Assembly (NCBI RefSeq): GCF_033880585.1
Contig: NZ_CP137624.1
Coordinates: 248,001-312,000, forward strand
Length of the DNA stretch: 64,000 bases
Source: Lysinibacillus louembei
Lineage (GTDB): Bacteria > Bacillota > Bacilli > Bacillales_A > Planococcaceae
Reading direction: 5' to 3'
The position numbers were made by a program, and so were the translations under genes. A model generated the notes under the pieces. That model saw nothing but the letters and a program-made list of their open reading frames with translations. It did not search any database and was not told the DNA's origin. Below are positions 13,277 to 61,413 of this stretch, in pieces (the first letter of the stretch is position 1; every line of letters starts with the position of its first letter).

Positions 13277-15784
13277 TTAATTCGCTACACCATGGCAGTT
13301 TTTATATTTTTTACCGCTACCGCATGGACATGGATCGTTCCGTCCAATATTTTCAGCTTTACGCACAGGTGCCTTTTTCTTCGGTGCTGCTTCCTCTTTT
13401 GGATTGACAGCTTGCCCTTTTGCCACCTCTTCACGCTGTAAATTACTGCGGATTTCAGCCTTCATTGCGTATTTTGCAACATCCTCACGAACTGCTGCAA
13501 CCATATCCTCAAACATTGCGAAGCCTTCTTGCTGATATTCACGCAATGGATCTGTTTGACCATATGCACGTAAATGAATCCCTTGACGCAGTTGATCCAT
13601 CGCATCAATATGGTCAATCCACTTCGTATCAATAGAGCGTAGTAAAATAACCTTTTCAAATTCGCGCATACGCTCTGGCGTTAGCTGCTCTTCTTTTTCA
13701 TCATAACGCTCTTGTACAGCTGCATAAATTGTCTCAATCATCGCTTCAGGTGTTTTGCCCTGTAAATCACTAACTGTTATTTTGCCTTCTTCAAGTAAGT
13801 TGGCTGCAATATAGTCTTCAAGCGACGCTAAGTTCCAATCTGCCTCTTCACCTTGCGTATGAAGTGCTACTGCGTGTTCAATTGTTTCGCGAATCATTGT
13901 CTCTACAAGCTCACGCATATTTTCTGATTCAATCACATCTTGACGCTCTTTATAAATTACTTCACGTTGTTGACGTAGCACATCATCATATTGTAACAGG
14001 CGTTTACGTGCATCAAAGTTATTACCTTCCACACGTTTTTGTGCTGATTCAACCGCTCTTGAAACAATTTTTGATTGGATTGGCTGTGAATCATCCATCC
14101 CAAGCTTTGTCATCATTGATTTCATATTATCAGAGCCGAAGCGACGCATTAAATCATCTTCTAAAGATAGATAGAATTGCGTTACCCCTGGGTTCCCTTG
14201 ACGACCAGAACGTCCACGTAGCTGATTATCAATACGACGTGACTCATGACGCTCTGTACCGATTACTGCTAAACCACCAAGCTCTAGCACACCTTCACCA
14301 GGTTTAATATCCGTACCGCGTCCCGCCATATTTGTAGCAATTGTCACAGCGCCTTTTTTACCTGCATCTGCAATAATTTCTGCCTCACGCTCATGATTTT
14401 TCGCATTTAATACATTATGCGGAATTTTATGCTTTGTTAATAAAGTTGAGATGATTTCAGACGTCTCAATCGCAACAGTCCCGACTAATACAGGCTGCCC
14501 CGCTCTATGACGCTCTGCAATATCAGCTGCTACCGCCTCAAACTTCCCTTTCATTGAGGCATACACTAAATCCGGTCGGTCATCACGTGCGATTGGCTTG
14601 TTCGTTGGAATTGCCACAACATCCATATTATAAATATTGCGGAATTCCTCTTCCTCTGTTTTCGCTGTACCCGTCATACCAGACAGCTTTTGGTACATAC
14701 GGAAGTAGTTTTGGAACGTAATCGTCGCCATCGTCATTGATTCATTTTGAATTTCTAAGCCTTCCTTTGCCTCAATTGCTTGATGCAAGCCATCTGAATA
14801 GCGGCGGCCTTTCATTAAACGACCTGTAAAGCCGTCAACGATTACTACTTCACCCTCTTGTACAACATAGTCAACGTCTACATGCATTGATACATGTGCC
14901 TTTAACGATTGGTTAATGGCATGGTTTAAGCGAACATGCGTTAAATCAAATAGGTTATCGATGCCAAATGCACGCTCCGCCTTTTCAATCCCGCTCTCCG
15001 TCAATGTTACGCCTTTTGTTGATTCATCATAGTTATAATCTTCCTCAGCCTTTAACATGCGTACAAACGCATTGGACTGCACATAAAGCTGCGCTGTTTT
15101 ACCCGCTTGTCCAGAAATAATTAACGGTGTACGTGCCTCATCAATTAAAATCGAGTCAACCTCATCGATAACAGCAAAATGTAATGGACGCTGTACGCGT
15201 TCCTCTTTATACAGCACCATATTGTCACGTAAATAATCGAAGCCTAGTTCATTATTTGTAGAATACGTAATGTCTGCCGCATAAGCCTCACGCTTTTCAT
15301 CCTTCGATAAGCTATTTAAGTTTAAACCTACCGTTAAGCCTAGCCATGAGAAAAGCTCGCCCATCTCCGTCGCATCACGACTTGCTAAATATTCATTGAC
15401 CGTTACGACATGTACGCCTTTACCTGTCAGCGCATTTAAATAAACAGCTAATGTAGAAGTTAATGTTTTACCTTCACCTGTTTTCATCTCTGCGATATTA
15501 CCATCATTTAAGGCAGCAGCCCCCATAATTTGCACGCGGAATGGGTACATACCTAATACACGACGTGCCGCTTCACGCACAACGGCAAACGCCTCTGGCA
15601 ATAAGTCATCAACCGTGTCGCCATTTTGGAAACGTGTTTTGAATTCTTCTGTTTTTGCCTTTAAAGCATCATCTGATAATGCTTCCATTTGGCTAGCAAA
15701 TGCTTCAACAGCATCCGCCTTTTTCTCTAAACGTTTTAATTCTTTTTTATTAAAGTCAAACATCTTGTTCAATATATTTAACAT
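13277..15784 (-). CDS. secA: Preprotein translocase ATPase SecA
   Basis: SecA drives export of unfolded proteins through SecYEG. The 835-residue protein starts [16 protein letters not shown]. It has the Walker A region [17 protein letters not shown] (about 97-113), Walker B with the [19 protein letters not shown] stretch and the second helicase domain [20 protein letters not shown]-terminal zinc tail, [16 protein letters not shown], binds SecB or ribosomes in relatives. Length is normal. GGAAGTG lies seven bases before the ATG. Confidence 0.98.
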
Positions 15785-15885
15785 GTATTTTCACTTCCTG
15801 TATTTTCTCTACCCCTCATTTTAGCATTATCTGTATGAATGGTGCAAACATTCATGAATTATATAATTTCGAAGAGCTGCTGTGA

Positions 15886-15959
15886 TTTTATTGGCGGCTT
15901 TCGGGATTCTATTGGCGATTTTTGTGATTCTATTAGCGCTTTTCGAAGTTCTATTGGCG
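15886..15959. repeat. Array 1 of the 21-bp ATTGGCG repeat (four units)
   Basis: The core ATTGGCG (one copy ATTAGCG) begins at 15890, 15911, 15932 and 15953, a strict 21-base period. T-rich runs lie between cores. The last unit contains the stop codon of the NERD gene (CTA at 15951-15953). A matching four-unit array is at 58699-58772 and a related ATTTGCG array at 60571-60659. It is not a CRISPR: units are directly abutting and no spacers exist. Confidence 0.85.
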
Positions 15960-16856
15960 GTTCCACAAAATATGATACTTTCTAAACCTTTTCTCCCCTG
16001 TATAAGGTAATCCAAGCTTCTTTAATAAGCGCTTCGCAGCATGAATCGAATCGATGCCTAAAAATGTTCTAAACTGCCCGTTTGAAATCCATTCGTCTAC
16101 TAATAAGCAATAATCACTTAAAGCCCGTCGCAACAAAGTATCATCATCTTTCAACACACAAGCAGAACAAATAAAATCACCATGCTGATAGTGCATCTGT
16201 CTTGTACATCGATGACATAAAACGCCTCCTCGCATAAGAGAAACATCTATATTTAATTTTGGCTTCAGTGAAACTTGCATTTGAAGTAATTGCTGGAGAA
16301 GTTGATCAAGTTGCTCATTTGTTAAAAGAGGTGGGAAAGAAGAAAGTAGCTCACACACATAAAATTCTAGCCCGCTACTATGAATAATCGGTGCATTTTG
16401 TGGTATACGCTCAATAACTGTTTTAGGATGAGCTAAAACGACCACATACAAAATCGGAAGCATCGGTATACACTGCGCAAGCATACGTTGATGACGCTGC
16501 GCTTGATTAAGTGGATTGCGAAAGCCTTGTACAGTGCCATCTTTCAGCTTGCGCGTAAATTGATGTGTCGTGCTATCAATTTCAATATGCCCTACAATAT
16601 TTTTGATTTCTAAAATGAGAAGGAATTTATTACAGAGAAAAATTGTATCAATCTGATGCGAAGGAGTTTGAAAATCGTGGAGTAAAAAATAAGGTTCATG
16701 TAGCCTCATATCGTCCCATTGACGATCAACATAAAATTCACCTACTAGCCCTTGCTGCACGCGAATCAGTTCATCTTGAAATTCAAGAAAGCCTCGGCGA
16801 ACTGCCGCTGTCAGCATCGCTTCTCTCATGGATTCTTCACGTGGTAAAACAATCAC
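15951..16856 (-). CDS. NERD-domain protein with C-terminal zinc ribbon
   Basis: A 301-residue cytoplasmic protein. Residues about 38-150 fit the nuclease-related NERD domain (GLVGEFYVDRQWDD, HQIDTIFLCNKFLLILEIKN, with Asp and E-x-K of the PD-(D/E)XK-like core). A CHRC...CSAC ribbon (about 226-245) follows, then a small C-terminal domain that may bind DNA. The function of such proteins is not established; DNA processing is an inference from the fold. The start is GTG (16854-16856), six bases after AGGAGG. The last four codons and stop lie inside 21-bp repeat array 1, so the repeat has set this gene's C-terminus. Confidence 0.8.
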   Translation of the reverse strand: MIVLPREESMREAMLTAAVRRGFLEFQDELIRVQQGLVGEFYVDRQWDDMRLHEPYFLLHDFQTPSHQIDTIFLCNKFLLILEIKNIVGHIEIDSTTHQFTRKLKDGTVQGFRNPLNQAQRHQRMLAQCIPMLPILYVVVLAHPKTVIERIPQNAPIIHSSGLEFYVCELLSSFPPLLTNEQLDQLLQQLLQMQVSLKPKLNIDVSLMRGGVLCHRCTRQMHYQHGDFICSACVLKDDDTLLRRALSDYCLLVDEWISNGQFRTFLGIDSIHAAKRLLKKLGLPYTGEKRFRKYHILWNRQ

Positions 16857-58698: not shown

Positions 58699-58772
58699 GT
58701 TTATTGGCGCTTTTGTAAGTTTTATTGGCGGATTTGTGGATTCTATTGGCGCTTTTACACGTTTTATTGGCG
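58699..58772. repeat. Array 2 of the 21-bp ATTGGCG repeat (four units)
   Basis: The core begins at 58703, 58724, 58745 and 58766, exactly 21 bases apart. T-runs recur about every 10 bases. It lies between the comFA leader and the degV terminator. In the minus-strand frame it reads as KSANK repeats, but no ribosome site or independent gene is present. Confidence 0.85.
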
Positions 58773-58777
58773 AATGC

Positions 58778-58810
58778 TAAAAAATGCCCGGAAAAATAGC
58801 TTCCAGGCAC
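58778..58810 (-). terminator. degV-end hairpin
   Basis: A 9-bp stem (58785-58793 with 58801-58809) with one U-G pair on the minus strand, followed there by TTTTTTAG. It terminates degV and directly abuts repeat array 2. Confidence 0.8.
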
Positions 58811-58821
58811 TCAATTCATCA

Positions 58822-59664
58822 TTATTTTTTCAGCCAGCCTACCGCTAATGCACCTTCACCTAAGTGTGTGCCGATTACTGGACCGAAGTAGCTTAGTTTA
58901 AAGCTAACGTTTGGATGCGTTGCCTGTAATTGTTTCATCCATTCAGCTGCTTCTTCCTCACAGTTGCTATGGATAACAGTTGCTTGCAAATCACCATGCT
59001 GCTCTATCGCTTGAGCTAATAGCTCTTCAACACGACGTAGCGCTTTTTTGCGCGTGCGAATTTTTTCAAATGGCACGATAACTTTATCAACGAAGTGGAG
59101 CACAGGCTTCACTTGAAGCAAGCCACCAATTAATGCTGCAGCAGCTGATAAACGACCACCGCGCTGTAAATGTGCTAAATCATCAACAACAAAATAAGCT
59201 CCTAATGTCGGTCTTATGCTTTCTAAATGTGCGATAATTTCTTCTACAGTGGCACCTTGTTCCACCATTTTCGCTGCCTCTAATACGTACATTCCTTGTG
59301 GTGAACAAGCAATTTCACTGTCAAAAGCTGTGACATTAATGCCCTCAACCATATTACCAGCCTGTACTGCACCGCTGAATGTGCCACTAATACCGCTTGA
59401 TAAATGAATGGAAATGACTTCATCATAGTCTTTAGCAAGCTGTTCAAATAGCTCGACAAATTTGCCAACTGGGGGCTGTGTTGTTTTTGGAAAAACTTTA
59501 GAGTTTCGCACTTTATCATAAAATTCAGAGGCTGTAATTTCGACCTCTTCCTCATAGACTCCATCTTCTAAATTAACGCTTAGAGGAATCATATGAATAT
59601 TATAGCGACTGCGTTCCTCTTCTGTTAAATAGGCTGTACTATCCGTTACAATTGCAATTTTCAT
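58822..59664 (-). CDS. degV: DegV family fatty-acid-binding protein
   Basis: A 280-residue cytoplasmic protein opening MKIAIVTDSTAYLTEEERSRY, with HLSSGISGTFSGAVQAG (lipid headgroup loop) and the GRLSAAAALIGGLLQVKPVL helix. Family members carry bound fatty acids and can serve as FakB-type subunits of fatty acid kinase. Named for its place near degSU. ATG 59662-59664 follows GGAAG; an in-frame GTG four codons earlier is possible. Confidence 0.94.
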   Translation of the reverse strand: MKIAIVTDSTAYLTEEERSRYNIHMIPLSVNLEDGVYEEEVEITASEFYDKVRNSKVFPKTTQPPVGKFVELFEQLAKDYDEVISIHLSSGISGTFSGAVQAGNMVEGINVTAFDSEIACSPQGMYVLEAAKMVEQGATVEEIIAHLESIRPTLGAYFVVDDLAHLQRGGRLSAAAALIGGLLQVKPVLHFVDKVIVPFEKIRTRKKALRRVEELLAQAIEQHGDLQATVIHSNCEEEAAEWMKQLQATHPNVSFKLSYFGPVIGTHLGEGALAVGWLKK

Positions 59665-59703
59665 TAATACTTCCACTCCTCTACTATCATCAATTACGCC
59701 TTA

Positions 59704-60570: not shown

Positions 60571-60659
60571 ATTTATAGGATTCTCTGATTTATTTGCGAC
60601 TTCTCGAATTTATTTGCGCTTTTTCCGATTTATTTGCGGCTTCTCAAATTTTATTTGCA
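60571..60659. repeat. Array 3, ATTTGCG variant of the intergenic repeat
   Basis: ATTTGCG or near variants begin at 60571 (degenerate), 60592, 60612, 60632 and 60653, spacing 20-21 bases. T-rich runs lie between cores. It is clearly related to arrays 1 and 2 (ATTGGCG) and lies between the lipoprotein leader and the degU terminator. The rest of 60381-60738 is leader and AT-rich DNA. Confidence 0.75.
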
Positions 60660-60687
60660 TTTTCCCTAATTCAGTCACAAATCTTCC

Positions 60688-60730
60688 TAAAAAAAATACT
60701 AGTTGCTTCATTCAAAACGAAGCAACTAGT
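60688..60730 (-). terminator. degU terminator
   Basis: A perfect 12-bp stem ACTAGTTGCTTC (60698-60709 with 60719-60730), followed on the minus strand by ATTTTTTTTAGG. Strong terminator ending degS-degU. Confidence 0.9.
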
Positions 60731-60738
60731 TAAAATTT

Positions 60739-61413
60739 TTAACGTACCTCTACCCAGCCGCTTTTAATGGCTGTCACAACTGCTTGTGTACGGTCGTTTA
60801 CATTCATTTTTTGCAGAATGCTTGATACGTGGTTTTTTACTGTTTTCTCAGAAATATAAAGCGTTTCGCCGATTGTGCGGTTGCTTTGCCCGTCCGTTAA
60901 AAGCTGTAATACTTCACATTCACGTTTTGTTAGTAAATGGAATGGACGGCGAATTTCTGTTTGGTGGAAGTTACCGTTGTTTTCATGCTCAGATAAACGG
61001 CGGAATTCTGCAACTAAATTTTTCGTTACCTTCGGGTGTAAGTATGAACCACCGTTTGCTACTACCTTAATTGCCTCCACAATTTCATCTGCATCCATTT
61101 CTTTCAGCATATAGCCTAGCGCACCTGATTTTAAAGCATGCGTTACATATGATTCATCATCATGAATCGATAACATAATCACTTTTGCCTCTGGGAATTC
61201 CTCAAGTAGCTCGCTTGTCGCCTCTACGCCATTTTTTCCCGGCATATTAATATCCATTAATACAACATCTGGTGCACTTGTGCGGTATAAGTTTACTGCA
61301 TCTGCGCCATCGTCACCTTCAGCAATTACATCAAAGGTATCCTCAAAATCTAAAATTCGCTTTACACCTTCACGGAAAAGTTGATGGTCATCTATAATTA
61401 CAATCTTCGTCAT
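60739..61413 (-). CDS. degU: Response regulator DegU
   Basis: A 224-residue NarL-type regulator with receiver phospho-Asp54 in [12 protein letters not shown] and the C-terminal Lux[29 protein letters not shown]...KTVKNHV. In B. subtilis DegU controls motility, competence (it aids ComK binding) and exoenzymes. It follows degS at 31 bases. Both flagellar and competence genes it governs in relatives share this window. Confidence 0.97.

Follow-up and report, generated by a model that had tools for sequence, protein, structure and literature searches.

Tandem 20-21-bp repeats with helical phasing and replication-linked orientation between genes of Lysinibacillus louembei

Repeat arrays in the window

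The window, which here means the whole 64,000-nt stretch analysed, occupies positions 248001-312000 of the 3.96 Mb, single-contig genome of Lysinibacillus louembei (G000) and contains three related arrays of short repeats. The arrays and their neighbouring features are as follows:

13277..15784, minus strand: secA, downstream neighbour of array 1
15818..15847, minus strand: probable secA promoter (TTGCAC, 18 bp, TAAAAT), proposed from the sequence and similar in relatives
15884..15962 (cores 15890-15959), plus strand: array 1, type A, four ATTGGCG/ATTAGCG cores at an exact 21-bp period, with ATTKGCG on the lagging strand
15951..16856, minus strand: NERD-domain gene, stop codon inside the last core of array 1
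58700..58774 (cores 58703-58772), plus strand: array 2, type A, four ATTGGCG cores at a 21-bp period, flanked by the degV terminator and the downstream helicase (comFA-like) gene
58775..58809, minus strand: terminator-like hairpin that follows degV and immediately precedes array 2; read directly from the sequence and missed by the pattern scan
58822..59676, minus strand: DegV-family gene, upstream neighbour of array 2
60588..60671 (cores 60592-60671), plus strand: array 3, type B, ATTTGCG cores at a period of 20/20/21, just downstream of a terminator
60698..60730, minus strand: intrinsic terminator that ends the response-regulator gene and immediately precedes array 3
60739..61413, minus strand: LuxR-type response-regulator gene, upstream neighbour of array 3

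The cores of array 1 start at 15890 (ATTGGCG), 15911 (ATTGGCG), 15932 (ATTAGCG), and 15953 (ATTGGCG), with a spacing of 21/21/21, the exact period given in an earlier note on this DNA. Tandem Repeats Finder delimited array 1 at 15884-15962 with a period of 21 and returned two relatives, at 58700-58772 (period 21) and 60588-60671 (period 20/21); the recurrence of the core and period in array 2, and of a variant core in array 3, was thereby confirmed. Three chains of at least three cores at 20-21 bp were observed in the window, compared with none in 200 first-order shuffles. Arrays 2 and 3 lie immediately past terminators, and the probable secA promoter lies approximately 37 bp downstream of array 1. 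The note had also placed the arrays only between genes. Intergenic placement was found, but the core of array 1 nearest 15959 overlaps the NERD stop codon, so that the claim is true to within about 9 bp. The NERD-domain gene ending in array 1 has a paralogous flank, approximately 67% identical, which adjoins another array in all three species (window 15951-16856; L043:5590-6528; L064; L203).

Two main sub-families of unit occur together, type A in arrays 1 and 2 and type B in array 3. The type A unit is ATTGGCG-N-TTTT-NNNN-RTTCT, 21 bp long and mostly present in 3-5 copies, and the type B unit is ATTTGCG-R-N-TT-..-RATWT, 20 or 21 bp long and present in up to 53 copies; the units are two helix turns long. 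The T-blocks of type A, at unit positions 9-12 and 18-21, are strongly conserved and have centres about 10.5 bp apart. In the unit logo, the core carried 1.6-2.0 bits and the T-blocks 0.9-2.0 bits, compared with only 0.05-0.16 bits at positions 13-16. The conservation of the core is partly ascertained, as the core belonged to the search motif; the T-blocks and the random positions lay outside that motif, indicating that the contrast between them is not a search artefact. Within single type A arrays, identity between units was 0.8-1.0 at the core and most T positions and 0.17-0.31 at positions 8 and 13-16. Because the N positions are random even inside one array while the core and T-blocks are fixed, the core and the phase appear to be selected.

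The power of AT dinucleotides peaked at 10-10.5 bp, approximately 9.7 times noise, and together with the positions of the T-blocks this bears out T-runs recurring about every 10.5 bases. The intrinsic curvature that had been predicted from these runs was not supported for array 1, where a wedge model gave a z of -0.86 and no excess static bend. Static curvature was weak in general and was rejected as a feature of the arrays (mean z 0.56 over 47 arrays). The description of the repeats as direct rather than inverted, spacer-free, dispersed, and helically phased was right, and no inverted core was found within 60 bp of the arrays except at one site. At that site, beside a SpoU-family methylase gene (L052:9540-9640, L205:9870-10030), the array ends in an inverted core that forms a terminator-like hairpin, AAAAAGCGCCAATA...TATTGGCGCTTTTT.

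Spread, placement, and turnover of the arrays

Genome-wide counts were obtained by pattern searches, and orientation was read from stretches fetched around the loci. The pattern ATTNGCG-N13/14-ATTNGCG matched 272 times in G000, compared with 3 matches for the reversed control, and pairs of the more general core CGCNRATA matched 352 times (1 control match). Stray ATTNGCG pairs at 1095781, 1703123, and 3163842 lay inside ORFs, occurred at the control rate, and were set aside. There are 20 intergenic ATTKGCG regions in G000, whose genome holds dozens of arrays. Beside ATTKGCG, G000 contains further families with the cores CGCAGATA, CGCTGATA, and TATTTGATCA, which repeat at the same period and are oriented in the same way. 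Among the other genomes of the host genus that were searched, arrays were present in every species, including G001, which had at first appeared array-less and whose cores are mostly CGCAGATA; arrays matching those of the window were also found in the relative Metasolibacillus sp. BHI2-bin.1. The absence of further copies, or an unconserved period, would have spoken against a repeat family, whereas both copies and period are kept across the genus. Copy number varies within a species, array 3 having four copies in G000 and about eight in G061. Long type-B arrays are homogenised, contain 40/41-bp dimer units, and have very different copy numbers between species. The position of arrays along the arms from origin to terminus showed no significant non-uniformity (KS p 0.075). 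The ATTKGCG searches of the G000 chromosome returned no array in the roughly 0.27 Mb to either side of dnaA.

The arrays are not placed evenly among genes. Convergent gene pairs were enriched (13 of 40 array regions against 31 of 281; OR 3.9, p=8e-4) and divergent pairs depleted (2 of 40 against 60 of 281; OR 0.19, p=0.01). Between tandem genes, the arrays keep closer to the upstream gene: the median distance to its 3' end was 70 bp, compared with 151 bp to the start of the following gene (p=0.009). A ribosome-binding site closely follows some arrays. No functional theme was detected among the neighbouring genes, which are mixed (secA, enolase, RNase J, degV).

At the secA site, four cores stand in register in three species, while the linkers and flanks have diverged past alignment. 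Four cores are found there in G002, G003, and G061 and two cores, 21 bp apart, in G001; in 25 genomes of other genera, no 20-21-bp array was detected within about 1.5 kb of this site. The degV-comFA site is occupied by four CGCCAATA units in G000, by mixed CGCAGATA/CGCAAATA units in G002, and by CGCTAATA followed by CGCAGATA in G001, and it is empty in G003, where the terminator is followed directly by the ribosome-binding site. Core families thus turn over at one site, with period and polarity held constant. At the SpoU site, one species has exactly one 21-bp unit more than another.

Orientation relative to replication

To assign the leading strand, the GC skew was taken at each fetched locus (mostly 10-20 kb); in G000, the outcome was consistent with the position of dnaA at 1.01 Mb. 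ATTKGCG lay on the lagging strand in all 48 arrays of G000, G002, and G003, distributed over 46 intergenic regions that correspond to about 30 independent sites by our count of orthologous groups. Nine further arrays of the CGCAGATA, CGCTGATA, and TATTTGATCA sub-families had the identical polarity, short arrays of 3-4 units were as polar as long ones, and in G000 the first of the plus-strand CGCNRATA pairs among the matches listed lay at 1.32 Mb, in the expected arm. The same polarity was seen in 13 convergent regions and in three regions with a head-on gene on either side (L059, L208, L213), two of the latter with modest local skew (-0.035 and -0.060). Polarity kept between convergent and between head-on genes indicates that orientation is set by replication rather than by transcription; gene direction as its cause is ruled out by these regions. 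Isolated cores outside arrays were unpolar, with leading:lagging counts of 60:43 for CGCAAAT and 26:39 for CGCCAAT.

General strand composition was weighed as a source of the polarity. Purine-rich 70-bp intergenic windows were skewed 181:51 (78%), and under this background the chance of uniform orientation is about 1e-5 for 46 regions and about 6e-4 for 30 independent sites. Plain purine skew is therefore unlikely to be the sole source of the polarity in the host genus. It could explain the weaker bias outside the genus, where 35 of 47 loci from other Bacillales with |skew| >= 0.05 were polar in the same way, a tendency only. Of the six arrays called in the complete genome G013, four were concordant and two discordant. 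In G005, a different core, CGCTCWAT, occupied the leading strand at each of the five loci with |skew| > 0.06. Other Planococcaceae genera (L218-L237 in G005, G028, and G015; L192-L202 in G013) carry many 20-21-bp arrays with cores of their own, namely CGCTCWAT, TAATCGCCC, TTCCGCGTTCA, ATTCGCGTAA, and TTGGCGATTA, and their polarity seems to depend on the motif and, in G013, has exceptions.

Relation to known repeats and possible function

Repeats of this general kind have been described, contrary to the earlier note, which knew of no description. The main text of Subirana and Messeguer (2021; PMC8161180), covering 176 Bacillus genomes, reports non-coding tandem repeats of constant size, 20-21 nt with some 40-41-nt forms. 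Several families of equal length occur per genome, with one short conserved core per species and variable copy number; the repeats are rare or absent in many related genomes, and a nucleoid protein was suggested, with no function assigned. The Planococcaceae names looked for do not occur in that text. Set against its defining features, the present arrays are tandem and constant in length (that class having at least four repeats; here units of 20/21, 4-53 copies in most arrays and 3 in some), non-coding, and dispersed in several equal-length families, and they carry a short characteristic signal, ATTKGCG or CGCNRATA. Families are species-specific, with partly conserved sites and variable length, the core itself being common to the genus. 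By every feature of the main text that was compared, the arrays belong to this class. That main text, supplements apart, does not mention replication polarity, placement at gene ends, a phased T-block logo, or core turnover at single sites, and full-text literature searches returned no description of replication polarity of such arrays. The polarity, the gene-end enrichment, and the phased logo are likely to be new; the turnover of core families at one orthologous site is new as far as we have checked.

This class, constant in length and changing in sequence, has so far been described without a function or mechanism. Starting from the phasing, the conservation of core and T-blocks over random linkers, the placement, and the polarity, all read directly from the DNA, we infer protein binding, polymerisation, and a role. 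Our preferred reading, to which we give a probability of about 0.45, is that the arrays are tandem, helically phased sites for a putative sequence-specific chromosomal (nucleoid) DNA-binding protein and may act as oriented patches that organise the nucleoid or bound transcription; nucleoid-protein binding, one of the roles raised in the earlier note, appears the best supported. The putative protein would read the ATTKGCG core together with the T-block that lies one turn from it on the same face of the helix, and would assemble side by side every two turns (20-21 bp). Side-by-side binding is suggested by the core and T-blocks on one face, the four free positions, the two-turn period, and the conserved sites, and the uniform polarity in three species suggests that a protein reads the arrays. 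The resulting patches would occupy the 3' ends of genes, in most cases immediately after a terminator and between convergent genes, and would probably organise the nucleoid or bound transcription. An orientation locked to replication implies that such a complex would be asymmetric, the wrong orientation being selected against or never made. Strict polarity and a contact-like pattern of core, phased T-blocks, and random remainder would make this repeat class a testable protein-binding problem. A bolder version seems unlikely to us: that the arrays are a new class of replication-polar element, on which the putative protein would form oriented filaments of two-turn period at gene ends and use the direction of fork or arm (in segregation, fork protection, or limiting head-on transcription), its core co-evolving genus by genus.

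Several observations go against the protein-site reading. Long type-B arrays behave like ordinary satellites, homogenised and variable in copy number, the degV-comFA site is empty in G003, and beyond the genus the polarity weakens to a tendency of about the same size as the general purine skew. The arrays may instead be neutral or weakly selected satellites that arose by slippage or by copying specific to the lagging strand, so that polarity would record their birth and not a role. The dimer units and divergent copy numbers of type B, the exact gain or loss of one unit at the SpoU site, and the absence of arrays at some sites fit this explanation, and satellites of strand-limited birth are possible, above all for the long type-B arrays. 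Drift would not leave linkers random between adjacent type A units with core and T-blocks fixed, nor do the secA cores in register in three species or the polarity of 3-4-unit arrays fit well, and for the arrays as a whole we consider it doubtful.

Binding sites for gyrase, or for wrapping of the HU type, would account for the phased 10-bp AT/GC signal, which eases wrapping, and for the enrichment at 3' ends and between convergent genes, where positive supercoils gather. In E. coli, the gyrase motif shows G/C variation phased at 10 bp, and the enzyme accumulates downstream of transcribed operons and cuts BIME-2 (PMC6379681). The arrays resemble BIME/REP elements in being intergenic and multi-copy, as gyrase-bound BIMEs are (PMC6379681), but BIMEs consist of palindromic REPs, whereas the arrays are direct, non-palindromic, and replication-polar and have another unit length. 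The phased variation of the arrays spans 84 bp, and strong gyrase sites span about 130 bp. The gyrase motif is degenerate, while the core here is strict and the T-blocks are strictly T rather than A or T, a preference that speaks against bendability alone as the signal, as gyrase by itself would require. A wrapping signal also offers no obvious cause of strict polarity, and we consider this account improbable.

We think it quite improbable that the arrays act in RNA, as rut-like Rho sites, leader or 3' elements, or small RNAs. The leading-strand RNA of type A is unstructured and richer in C than in G (0.27 vs 0.16 and 0.13), some arrays immediately precede a ribosome-binding site, and 52-nt repeats of another kind are reported to be transcribed in B. 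coagulans (PMC8625621), which we count in favour. Over all arrays, however, C does not exceed G (0.18 vs 0.20), the arrays have no match in Rfam, and their transcripts fold no better than shuffles; the independence of orientation from transcription in head-on and convergent regions argues against an RNA element. Least probable, and very unlikely, is a role in guiding an FtsK/SpoIIIE-type translocase, with the arrays as polar sites at which it would load or be steered: the arrays share absolute polarity and short motifs with SRS/KOPS, and the type B leading strand often contains GAGAAG, near the SRS GAGAAGGG, but type A arrays lack such octamers, and guides are scattered single copies, non-tandem, unphased, and of other sequence, whereas the arrays are clustered and few and their isolated cores do not form a polar single-copy octamer chromosome-wide.

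The arrays share with CRISPR only repeats with variable stretches between them. They consist of contiguous 20-21-bp units with a 7-bp core and a 4-nt variable stretch at dozens of loci, lack a repeat-spacer architecture, and have no cas genes beside them by Pfam annotation of the flanking genes, in agreement with the note's exclusion of CRISPR. Plasmid iterons are direct repeats of about 19-22 bp in helical phase that are bound by one protein. The arrays resemble them in phase, direction, and unit length but are dispersed along the chromosome, and the neighbours examined include neither a Rep gene nor an origin. In two Bacillus genomes (L108:5891-5939, L117:3519-3785), an ATTTGCG array lies between genes of 838 and 328 aa, sizes that match secA and prfB, so that this array is possibly on the other side of secA. 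In Ureibacillus acetophenoni (L079, L135, L146), higher-order units of about 102 bp comprise five repeats of about 21 bp with ATTTGCG/ACTTGCG cores.
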